A program made the position numbers and the translations under genes. A DNA stretch of 64,000 bases, taken from positions 62,001 through 126,000 of the forward strand of contig NZ_FOXI01000002.1 in assembly GCF_900115675.1 (NCBI RefSeq). The letters are read 5' to 3'. The notes below the pieces were generated by a model. It ran no database searches and was not told where the DNA came from. It worked only from the letters and a program-made list of their open reading frames with translations. The DNA is from Halolamina pelagica. Its GTDB lineage: Archaea > Halobacteriota > Halobacteria > Halobacteriales > Haloferacaceae. Position 1 is the stretch's first letter. Each line of letters begins with the position of its first letter. Below, piece after piece: positions 22,060-25,041 of this stretch.

Positions 22060-22148
22060 CGCGCGGCGAACCGACCGCACGACCGCCGCGATCGCCGTCA
22101 TAGCTGTTCGCCGTTTTACACATCAGTTTCATATAGGAATTTTAACGG

Positions 22149-22158
22149 TATATTTTTT
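22149..22158 (+). promoter_or_regulatory. TATA box of the 46-aa peptide gene
   Basis: TATATTTTTT centred about 30 nt before the ATG at 22183, inside an AT-rich patch (22125-22160) that stands out in this GC-rich sequence. It is flanked by ggta and tacc, a short inverted repeat. The spacing implies a nearly leaderless transcript and a strong promoter. Confidence 0.6.
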
Positions 22159-22182: not shown

Positions 22183-22323
22183 ATGGAATCCAACAGTTCC
22201 AGCATGGCGGCGTACCTCGCGGAACACCCGAAGATGGTCGGCGTCCTGTTCACGATGCTGGTGGTGCTCTCGCAGGCCAGCGGTATCGTCGCGGCCGGCC
22301 AGGGGACTACTGTCGGTCCCTGA
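22183..22323 (+). CDS. Small haloarchaeal membrane peptide (DUF7503-like)
   Basis: A 46-residue peptide. A short polar N terminus (MESNSSSMAAYLAEHPKM) is followed by one hydrophobic span VGVLFTMLVVLSQASGIVAA and a Gly-rich tail ending TTVGP. I recall many haloarchaeal genomes carrying peptides of the pattern YLAEHPR.IG.LFTM...LSQAG...AAG, which I believe Pfam calls DUF7503; this is from memory. Its last 17 nt overlap the 3' end of the convergent CHAT gene. A strong AT-rich promoter precedes it. Confidence 0.75.
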   Translation: MESNSSSMAAYLAEHPKMVGVLFTMLVVLSQASGIVAAGQGTTVGP

Positions 22324-24382
22324 GCGTCGACAGATCGACCGAGTTCGTCCACCAGAGTTCGCCGTCGACGACGATGGGGATGCGGTGATCGCTCAGTCGC
22401 TCCACCAGCCGCTCGTAGGTGACGGTGAACGTCGCCATCTCGCCCACCGCGAGGTACTGCGTGCCGTTCTCCTCGATGTACGGGCGAGTCATCGAGCCGA
22501 CGTTGTACGTCGCCGTCGGGTACTCGTGGTACGTGACGGTCACTCGCTCCGGCCCCCGCTCGTCGCAGGTGAGCAACAGCGGCGTCCCGGAGTCGGACTG
22601 TGAGATCGTGACGCGCCCGTCGCCGACGACCACGTAGTTCTGCCGCGAGATCCGGATACGGCGGATCACGTCCAGCGCCCCGTGGAAGTCGAAGCCGGCG
22701 TCGAGCAGGCGGGCCAGGTGCCGGCCGGTCGTGGTCGCTTTCGCGTTGCTCACGCTGGTGAGCGTCGCCACCCCGCCGAAGGCGCCGGCATCGACGAGCG
22801 CCTGGCCCTGCTCGTAGGAGCGACAGCCGTTGAGCAGGAACGCCTCCACGCCCGTCCCCGAGAGGGTCCCCAGGTCGAGGTAGCCGTCGGCGCACTGCAC
22901 CCCCTCGTCCTCCACGTGACCGACGTAGTGGAGGAAGCTGGTCTCCGTTCGCAGCACCGACCGAAGTTCCCGCTTGGTCAGGTCGTTGTGGCGCCGCACC
23001 TCGAAGGTGAGCATGTCGAAGAAGCCGTACAGCTCCTCGTCGATCTCCTCGAGCATCGCCTCGTCGTTACAGACCAGCGTCACCGTCGTCGTGCTGTCGT
23101 CGGTCGGCTGGCGGCCGAGCCGTCGCCGGTAGGCGTCGACGGTCGGCTTCGAGGCGCCCATCGGGAACTGCTCGCCCACCCAGACGTGGCCGTACGTGTC
23201 CGTTTCGACCGGGGATCGAACCGACTCGGCTGTCGCGTGGGCGTTCTGTGTGGTCCGGCTCCCGCGGGGCGCCCCCCGCGCGTCGTCGGCCCGGAAGAAC
23301 TCCTCGAGTTCGTCGGGTTCCGTCGTCGCCGTGGATCGCTCCGCGAGCGGCGTCGGCGACCGGACGATCGCGAGGTCGTCGGCGACGAACGGCAGGATCG
23401 CCGCGTTCCGGGCCGCCGGCTCCACGTCCGCGGTGAGGTGCCAGTCCAGCAGGTCCTCGGTGGCGTCCCGCGGCACCGACAGGTAGGCGGCGGTCCGGCG
23501 GTCGATCGGCATCTCGTACCACCGCTCGGGGTCGATCGCCGTTCTGTCGGCCAGCGCCGCCCGCTCCCGGAGCGACACCGGGTAGAGCCCTTCCGTCCGG
23601 GCGACACAGTCGAGGAGGAAGCAGTGTCTGAGCGTGTCGGCCGCTGCCTCACCCAACTCGCCACGCAGGGGGACCGTCTCGTCGCCGGCGACGAGTTCCG
23701 GCATCGCGGCGCCGGTCCGGACGGCGGCGCCGAGGTAGTACGACAGGGGTGCGACGCTGAACACGCTCGCGTAGTCGTCGGGGACCCGGATCTCGATGCC
23801 CGTGGCCGGCCGTTCGATGCCGTCGGCGTCGAACGCCTCGCCGAACTCGAGCATGGGCGGATGCCCGCGGAGCGTCGGGAACGAGCGCTCCGGCGACGTG
23901 GTCTTGAGCGCCGAGGCGAACAGCGAGACCCCGCGGGCCACGCCGGCGGGCGTCTTCGGCACCGTGACGGTGCCGGCGGGGCGTCGGTGGGGCGAGCGAG
24001 CGCCGACGAGGACCGTCGACGGGCCGTCGAAGCTGATCCGGGTGCCCGACCCGGCGGTGGCGACCGTCGCGAAGGGGTCGATCCGGAGGTAGAGCTTCAT
24101 CGGCGTGTTCGTCGCCTCCACGAACGTCGTCGCCGTCACGGACTGTTCCGCGCCGGCCACCGCCCGGCGTCCGCTGCCGGCGGCGTCCCGGAGGTGGTAG
24201 TCGACCACCGTCGGCAGTGAGAGGCGGTCGGTCCGGATGTGGACCGCGGCGTCGATCGGGGCGGGGAACTGGTCGGTGGTCGCCGGCGCCGGCGAAACGC
24301 CGTCGGCGTTGACGACGTACTCGACCTCCTCGACCGTGTCGACGACCCGCAGGCCGCGCTCGGCGGTTTCGAACTCGATCAC
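22307..24382 (-). CDS. CHAT-domain (caspase-like) protein
   Basis: A 691-residue protein. The C-terminal third is a CHAT peptidase domain: the catalytic His is His489 in LHYVGHV and the catalytic Cys is Cys520 in FLLNGCRSYEQG, matching the family GH and (L/N)xC patterns. Residues 1 to about 400 form a large beta-rich and mixed N-terminal region with no known domain, and about 590-691 is a beta-rich tail. No signal peptide or membrane segment. GTG start at 24382 overlaps the stop of the upstream gene by 4 nt, giving translational coupling. CHAT proteases elsewhere execute programmed cell death or defence after activation by a partner. Here the partner and substrate are unknown. Confidence 0.82.
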   Translation of the reverse strand: MIEFETAERGLRVVDTVEEVEYVVNADGVSPAPATTDQFPAPIDAAVHIRTDRLSLPTVVDYHLRDAAGSGRRAVAGAEQSVTATTFVEATNTPMKLYLRIDPFATVATAGSGTRISFDGPSTVLVGARSPHRRPAGTVTVPKTPAGVARGVSLFASALKTTSPERSFPTLRGHPPMLEFGEAFDADGIERPATGIEIRVPDDYASVFSVAPLSYYLGAAVRTGAAMPELVAGDETVPLRGELGEAAADTLRHCFLLDCVARTEGLYPVSLRERAALADRTAIDPERWYEMPIDRRTAAYLSVPRDATEDLLDWHLTADVEPAARNAAILPFVADDLAIVRSPTPLAERSTATTEPDELEEFFRADDARGAPRGSRTTQNAHATAESVRSPVETDTYGHVWVGEQFPMGASKPTVDAYRRRLGRQPTDDSTTTVTLVCNDEAMLEEIDEELYGFFDMLTFEVRRHNDLTKRELRSVLRTETSFLHYVGHVEDEGVQCADGYLDLGTLSGTGVEAFLLNGCRSYEQGQALVDAGAFGGVATLTSVSNAKATTTGRHLARLLDAGFDFHGALDVIRRIRISRQNYVVVGDGRVTISQSDSGTPLLLTCDERGPERVTVTYHEYPTATYNVGSMTRPYIEENGTQYLAVGEMATFTVTYERLVERLSDHRIPIVVDGELWWTNSVDLSTLRDRQ

Positions 24383-25041
24383 GGTTCACCGAGGGCGACC
24401 CAACTGGTGGTACCTCGCCCCGGGAGGTGCCAGCGTTGCTCGGGGTCCGTCGCGGCGGTCCGGAGCTCCAACCGGGCGTCGAACACGGAGTCGAGGTCGG
24501 CGACGGCGTCGGAGTCCGGCGCCCGCGGCAGGTGGTAGTGACCGACCCCGCGGACACGGCGGACCGCACCGGTCAGCCGAGCGGTGAGGGTCCGGACGGC
24601 TTCGACCCCGTGGGCCTCGAGCAGCGTCTCGAGCGAGTAGACGCCGGCCCGGAGCACGGCGGGCGACGGCGTCCCGTCGGGCTCCCACTCGCGGATCTGG
24701 GCGTCGATACGGCGGACGGTGTCGTCGGCGCGTCCCGGCTGGACGGGGCTATCGGCGACCGCGTCGCCGCGGAGATCTGGCTCGCCGATCAGCGCCACCT
24801 CGTCGTCCTCGGGCGCGTACTCGCCCGGGAGCCACGCGGCGTCGTCGACGCCGCTGTCGGTGAGTGCGAGCACTCGGTAGCGCTCCTCGTCGGGGTGGCC
24901 CAGCAGGCGACGCGTCGCTCGGCGGGAGACGGCTTCCGGCACGTCCCCGATGACGAGCACCTGCGCCCCGCGGCGCTTGAGCTCCTGGAGCGTCCTCCGG
25001 ACGCTCCCGCCTCCGCGGCACGTCGCGACGGGCCGGCTCAT
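24379..25041 (-). CDS. RecA/KaiC-like protein with degenerate P-loop (DUF7504-like), partner of the CHAT protein
   Basis: A 220-residue protein. QVLVIGDVPEAVSRRATRRLLG sits where a Walker A loop would be, but lacks GxxxxGK, so it is probably not an active ATPase. The C-terminal RWHLPGRGTTSWVAL resembles the end of haloarchaeal DUF7504/KaiC-like proteins, from memory. ATG 25041 is preferred; an in-frame ATG at 25065 would add eight residues. The stop overlaps the CHAT GTG start, so the two are made together, suggesting a sensor or scaffold for the protease. It is divergent from the diphthine-ammonia ligase gene. Confidence 0.65.
   Translation of the reverse strand: MSRPVATCRGGGSVRRTLQELKRRGAQVLVIGDVPEAVSRRATRRLLGHPDEERYRVLALTDSGVDDAAWLPGEYAPEDDEVALIGEPDLRGDAVADSPVQPGRADDTVRRIDAQIREWEPDGTPSPAVLRAGVYSLETLLEAHGVEAVRTLTARLTGAVRRVRGVGHYHLPRAPDSDAVADLDSVFDARLELRTAATDPEQRWHLPGRGTTSWVALGEP

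Follow-up and report, generated by a model that had tools for sequence, protein, structure and literature searches.

The window analysed here, a stretch of 64,000 nucleotides from the haloarchaeon Halolamina pelagica (contig NZ_FOXI01000002.1, positions 62,001 to 126,000), encodes a CHAT (clan CD, caspase-like) cysteine protease (22307..24382, minus strand, 691 residues, GTG start) flanked by two smaller genes. On its 3' side lies a precursor gene of the DUF7503 family (PF24335; 22183..22323, plus strand), whose 46-residue product combines a hydrophobic helix, a variable tail and a Gly-Pro end, and on its 5' side a DUF7504 gene (PF24336; 24379..25041, minus strand, 220 residues) for a protein with a KaiC/RecA fold lacking the P-loop; the start codons are predicted ones. 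The TGA stop of the KaiC-like gene (24381-24379) and the GTG start of the CHAT gene (24382-24380) share the nucleotides GTGA (24379-24382), and the first gene is, judging from the sequence, translationally coupled to the second. The peptide gene and the CHAT gene are convergent, their 3' ends overlapping by 17 nucleotides (22307-22323), and an AT-rich promoter element resembling TATA/BRE (transcription factor B recognition element) sequences lies about 35 nucleotides 5' of the peptide ATG (22143..22157, plus strand). The three open reading frames and their positions, the GTGA overlap and the convergence of the peptide gene on the CHAT 3' end are all as described in the original prediction, which was made from this DNA alone and proposed a protease module with the KaiC-like protein as sensor and the peptide as substrate or membrane effector.

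No significant match to the window CHAT protein was found in Pfam, NCBIfam or PADLOC, and the Pfam CHAT profile (PF12770) has no match in the genome containing the window; the same profile is matched by 11 of 40 relatives of the protein (best E 2e-5). An AlphaFold model built from 40 sequences (predicted local distance difference test, pLDDT, 80) was compared with the PDB using Foldseek, and it matched gingipain RgpB, separase, SAVED-CHAT (8tl0) and Csx29 (8eey) with E from 1e-5 to 1e-3, and procaspase-3 more weakly. In this model, His489 (codon 22916..22918, minus strand) and Cys520 (codon 22823..22825, minus strand) each come directly after a core strand of the caspase-like domain, as the fold expects, the histidine following the third strand (E481-487) and the cysteine the fourth (E512-518). 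Among the relatives, we distinguished CHATs with a DUF7503 peptide (type A), CHATs without DUF7503 but with a convergent hydrophobic reading frame carrying Gly-Pro at or near its end (type B), and the remainder (type C). The dyad is invariant in type A (128/128) and kept in all 7 CHATs of type B and in 42 of the 44 of type C, giving 49 of 51 outside type A. Considering the fold matches of the model and the CHAT profile hits among its relatives, we assign the 691-residue protein to the clan CD CHAT/caspase-like proteases; its dyad is intact, protease activity is predicted, and its earlier identification as such a protease, including the His489/Cys520 pair, is borne out. The N-terminal ~400 residues are conserved too (Arg166, Arg172, Arg262 and Trp314); this region is beta-rich in the model, and no fold family could be assigned to it. 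The protein is 88% identical to the CHATs of Halolamina rubra and H. pelagica, and it has no sequence relatives in the PDB.

The small protein is a clear member of DUF7503 (68.1 bits against a Pfam cut-off of 27; E 5e-19). Members of the family share a short N-terminus, the motif (H/N)PRM, a hydrophobic stretch, S-Q-A-G-x-V-A-A and about nine residues ending in Gly-Pro, which in the window read AGQGTTVGP (22294..22320, plus strand). The Gly-Pro C-terminus is present in 130 of 138 DUF7503 peptides. Among the 126 distinct members that end in it, the tail is variable, with an entropy of 2.3-3.3 bits at positions -9 to -3, and falls to 0.9 bits at -10, where Ala is found in 108 peptides. Each of the four Gly codons and each of the four Pro codons is used, and the Gly-Pro end persists without overlap; this rules out that it arises at the DNA level merely from the overlap with the CHAT gene. 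Given that most codon differences in the peptide gene between Halolamina species are synonymous (7/7 against H. rubra and 10/13 against H. pelagica), the peptide is under purifying selection. Its promoter, likewise anticipated by the original prediction, is conserved as a peak of up to 85% AT at -40 to -30 across 128 loci, against 36% bulk AT.

In a class sample of 292 Halobacteria genomes, the CHAT gene occurs in 271 (93%) and DUF7503 in 250, all of which also carry CHAT. The 21 CHAT-less genomes, in which the absence of CHAT was rechecked by profile, are all without DUF7503, and 16 of 16 loci picked by DUF7503 rank contain CHAT. Convergence of the peptide gene on the CHAT 3' end was seen in 29 of the 30 best loci and in 71 of the 79 named ones; the pairs mostly overlap or lie a few nucleotides apart, a 4-nucleotide overlap being the commonest arrangement. 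These loci are related and hence not independent, and clustering lessens this effect of kinship without removing it. The gene arrangement is far beyond chance, and the DUF7503 peptide, rather than DUF7504, is the constant partner of the protease. Convergence as an essential feature is ruled out by two loci: the L123 gene for a helix peptide with the C-terminus AVAGGGAGYYGP is divergent and lies 251 nucleotides upstream of CHAT, and in L004 the peptide gene lies ~1 kb from CHAT. As the L123 peptide shows, convergent overlap is not the point of the association. A further variant, in which two tandem DUF7503 genes stand at a single CHAT 3' end, was seen in another genome (G012; L029:1221-1480). 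Outside Halobacteria, CHAT relatives were found in one family only of the phylum sample (f19, L219-L222; E about 1e-65 to 1e-87), with neither a recognised peptide nor a Gly-Pro peptide with a membrane helix nearby.

The strongest sign of which part of the small protein is read comes from Haloplanus. An ordinary DUF7503 gene occurs in one of seven genomes, and the six others, together with one metagenome-assembled genome (MAG), carry a helix-less repeat gene at the same site; the genus label rests on L178, a Haloplanus MAG clustering with these genomes. The repeat gene has a closely similar N-terminus (MSE-DSGTV-like), followed by a unit such as YNADGNGGGISGP in 2-13 copies, the number differing between genomes. 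This unit comprises 13 residues ending in ISGP or VSGP, and the copies are near-identical in protein while varying in synonymous codons. Across 8 Haloplanus loci, with and without a repeated coding region, the promoter is close to identical. Because Haloplanus loses the helix and multiplies the tail, the Gly-Pro tail appears to be the part that is read and, as far as sequences allow such a statement, it is probably the working part of the small protein. In the repeats (L097, L098, L099, L178, L239, L240 and L241), YNAD, YTAD or MTAD precedes GNxxxISGP, a caspase-like context with Asp at P1 and Gly at P1'. Asp at -10 was discarded as a general mark of caspase-like cleavage, being confined to the Haloplanus repeats and L065/L066, with mostly Ala elsewhere; it is a lead only.

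The Gly-Pro end also recurs beside CHAT genes that lack DUF7503. Scanning these genes from -40 to +100 nucleotides for any convergent open reading frame whose last two residues are exactly Gly-Pro gave a hit at 18 of the 44 type C loci and at 5 of the 7 of type B, compared with 53 hits among 2295 control gene ends; since Gly-Pro enters into the definition of type B, the fair comparison is that with type C. When the non-DUF7503 CHATs were clustered at 50% identity, the Gly-Pro end was present in 9 of 28 clusters against a rate of 2.3% (p ~2e-7). Soluble partners of this kind include those ending in ...ASACTYSGP (Halococcus), the ...AKRVSTYGGP group and ...LDGSSSPYTGP, and a helix-bearing one, HPRLVAALLAALVLLAL, with Gly-Pro near its end, is encoded at another CHAT locus of the window's own genome (L118). 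The DUF7503 Pfam model does not pick up the other Gly-Pro-ended partners, soluble or membrane. A transmembrane helix as the conserved working part is ruled out, as it is missing in Haloplanus, Halococcus and others while the Gly-Pro stays, and the idea of the peptide as a membrane effector loses weight, since helix-less relatives at this position retain only the Gly-Pro tail.

The KaiC-like protein is less closely tied to the protease. Its membership of DUF7504 is clear (135.5 bits against a cut-off of 27; E 3.7e-39), and the RecA/KaiC-like fold proposed for it was recovered in a model with a pLDDT of 86, which matched FlaH, KaiC and RecA with E ~1e-7. The Walker A motif GxxxxGK[ST], with the P-loop Gly-Lys-Ser/Thr, is absent in 34 aligned members, namely the window protein and 33 relatives. 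Every one of the 292 genomes searched has DUF7504, mostly as several copies, and the family lies within ~1.3 kb of 62 of the 128 peptide-bearing CHATs. Given that it is near only these 62 loci, yet present in all 292 genomes, DUF7504 is best described as an optional neighbour. Since it adjoins CHAT in only about half of the loci, an obligate partnership is ruled out, and neither a fixed triplet of CHAT, KaiC-like protein and peptide nor a KaiC-like protein as the defining sensor survived the comparison of neighbourhoods. Of the module as first conceived, the caspase-like CHAT with its intact dyad and the dedicated small-peptide partner remain.

Two protease lineages can be distinguished, the DUF7503-linked group and a second group that is often syntenic with glyA, tbsP and a SagD-family YcaO gene. 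Members of the second lineage (L118, at G000:C19:30117-40126, and L126, L127, L232 and L237) lie between a divergent glyA (serine hydroxymethyltransferase) and tbsP, and in some genomes the SagD-family YcaO gene is 3' of tbsP. The own-genome copy of this lineage is L118, with its Gly-Pro-containing helix peptide. Two more CHAT paralogues were found in the same genome: one (L116, G000:C36) has kept DUF7503 while its DUF7504 is split between frames, and in the other (L119, G000:C22) the CHAT looks broken. At L223:3263-10254 (G023), three CHAT genes stand in tandem, with no recognised Gly-Pro peptide; beyond them, a TRAM-domain gene in convergent orientation overlaps the stop of the last one.

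We lean towards the interpretation that the CHAT protease and the small peptide form a dedicated pair: the Gly-Pro tail would serve as a substrate or switch that the protease recognises, through binding, cleavage or switching steps that we infer. The caspase-like CHAT would be a cytosolic cysteine protease, and the convergent small gene would make its dedicated partner. The protease would read the C-terminal tail, a short variable stretch with a Gly-Pro end, and the remainder of the small protein would serve as a carrier, in the form of a signal-peptide-like membrane helix in most species and of a soluble many-tail precursor in Haloplanus. Depending on the topology of the peptide, this carrier may set the tail at the membrane or export it. 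Docking of the tail in CHAT, as substrate or allosteric ligand, would then set the activity of the protease towards putative downstream targets, and DUF7504, where present, may add a regulatory input. Two observations weigh against this proposal. The positive charges preceding the helix suggest an N-in/C-out orientation, with the tail outside and away from the cytosolic protease, and for ~38 of the 207 distinct CHATs no Gly-Pro-ended neighbour was recognised, so that the partner may be dispensable, located elsewhere or missed.

A lesser, tentative possibility is that the locus serves peptide signalling. The small protein would be a pheromone precursor, cut by signal peptidase after A-x-A to yield a nonapeptide ending in Gly-Pro, and CHAT, with or without DUF7504, would be the maturing protease or the receptor. 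In Haloferax this predicted product would be GNTGVIYGP, and in Haloplanus GNGGGISGP. The precursors have a textbook n/h/c-region layout, in which the -3,-1 rule is satisfied at position -10 in 112 of 126 peptides and no neighbouring position does better, and the tail combines variable sequence with constant length and a fixed end. The tandem-copy precursors of Haloplanus recall the duplicated Phr pheromones (PMC11343458), the propeptide and putative receptor genes are adjacent as in RRNPP systems (PMC10075063), and Haloferax volcanii secretes a density signal (PMC13286277). An exported peptide signal is thus possible from the layout of the precursor, but the soluble versions lack an export signal, the helix sequence is conserved beyond the needs of a mere signal peptide, and no linked importer or response regulator was seen. 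The fuller scenario, an archaeal signalling system in which a caspase-like protease would mature or sense secreted nonapeptides of variable sequence with a constant Gly-Pro end, each locus would have its own pair and the multi-copy precursor of Haloplanus would resemble yeast alpha-factor, is slightly more speculative still.

Besides recognition or export of the tail, the main other reading is a securin-like inhibitor, which we consider rather doubtful. The tail would act as a pseudosubstrate that keeps CHAT inactive at the membrane, as securin does for separase, until stress releases the protease. The resemblance of the CHAT model to separase fits such a role, as do the peptide gene's own strong, conserved promoter and the avidity that tandem tails could give. 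However, CHAT genes also persist where no partner was recognised, variable tails would be unusual for an inhibitor, and soluble partners would not tether the protease to the membrane.

A module for defence or cell death, the framing suggested by the original prediction, would have DUF7504 sensing infection, CHAT becoming activated and a membrane-active peptide being released to kill the cell. Such a mode of action is known for CHAT proteases of Craspase (PMC10028731 for Csx29) and of gasdermin systems, and most species have a hydrophobic peptide. Yet the protease is near class-wide, its neighbours are ordinary metabolic genes (in the window, PAPS-reductase-like, diphthamide synthase and Na+/H+ antiporter genes), and none of the three proteins matches a PADLOC model; a classical role in phage defence is therefore unlikely, and the defence or cell-death framing finds no support. 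DUF7504 is also missing at half of the loci, and soluble partners are without the helix. No CHAT relative was found among IMG/VR viral contigs, and a viral origin was rejected on this basis.

It is very unlikely that the small gene encodes an arrest peptide, whose Gly-Pro-stop end would stall the ribosome, sense membrane insertion and control the neighbouring gene. Proline before a stop codon slows termination, known arrest peptides end in Gly-Pro, and the Gly-Pro stands exactly at the stop in most members; against this, the Haloplanus repeats contain many internal Gly-Pro units, the residues preceding the Gly-Pro are variable, and the neighbouring gene is on the opposite strand. That the convergent overlap reflects mere transcriptional interference between functionally unrelated genes is barely credible, for although most pairs overlap or lie a few nucleotides apart, the presence of the peptide is nested in that of CHAT without exception, some pairs are ~1 kb apart or divergent, and conservation is at the protein level.

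In the papers searched, no mention was found of DUF7503, of DUF7504, or of a CHAT domain together with haloarchaea or Haloferax, and the two Pfam families to which the window proteins belong by score (PF24335 and PF24336) are both filed as being of unknown function. The protease-peptide pair, near-universal in haloarchaea, looks undescribed. Among known systems, Csx29 (TPR-CHAT) and Csx30 of the type III-E CRISPR Craspase likewise combine a CHAT protease with a dedicated neighbouring partner (PMC10028731), and Csx29 is among the predicted matches of the haloarchaeal fold. In contrast to Craspase, no TPR repeats were seen in the haloarchaeal CHAT, which is near-universal in its class, and its partner is small and Gly-Pro-tailed, whereas that of Craspase is a sigma-factor inhibitor; no Cas7-11 or CRISPR genes were found among the CHAT neighbours examined. 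SAVED-CHAT (PDB 8tl0) has the same protease fold, but no SAVED domain was recognised in the haloarchaeal CHAT by sequence or fold, and linkage to type III CRISPR was not seen. Separase and securin offer a clan CD protease, among the best structural matches, with a dedicated partner protein, although the similarity of the haloarchaeal CHAT to PDB entries does not extend to sequence.

The likeness to the RRNPP and Rap-Phr systems (PMC10075063, PMC11343458) lies in the propeptide encoded beside its partner gene, the signal-peptide-like precursor, the short variable C-terminal peptide and the tandem-copy precursors. The pair described here differs in being archaeal and convergent, and in that the place of the TPR receptor is taken by a caspase-like protease whose N-terminal part is beta-rich.

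Strong caspase-like activity on Asp substrates has been reported in H. volcanii, for which no caspase homologue was reported (PMC3615174). The common ground with the CHAT protease is that both are haloarchaeal and caspase-like and that Haloferax species carry the full triplet of CHAT, peptide and DUF7504; in the H. volcanii control genome, DUF7503 and DUF7504 were found. The CHAT gene is, in this respect, a candidate for the unexplained activity. Haloarchaea are known to signal between cells, largely by means that have yet to be explained (PMC13286277, PMC10223598), the density signal of H. volcanii having been described only as a secreted small molecule (PMC13286277), and if the tail is exported, the pair becomes a candidate for archaeal peptide signalling. 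Both ideas are open to ordinary gene deletions in this laboratory species. Where the partners of caspase-like proteases are known, these proteases have altered how signalling and cell death in prokaryotes are seen, and here such a protease extends across nearly a whole archaeal class, its partner marked simply by a C-terminal Gly-Pro.

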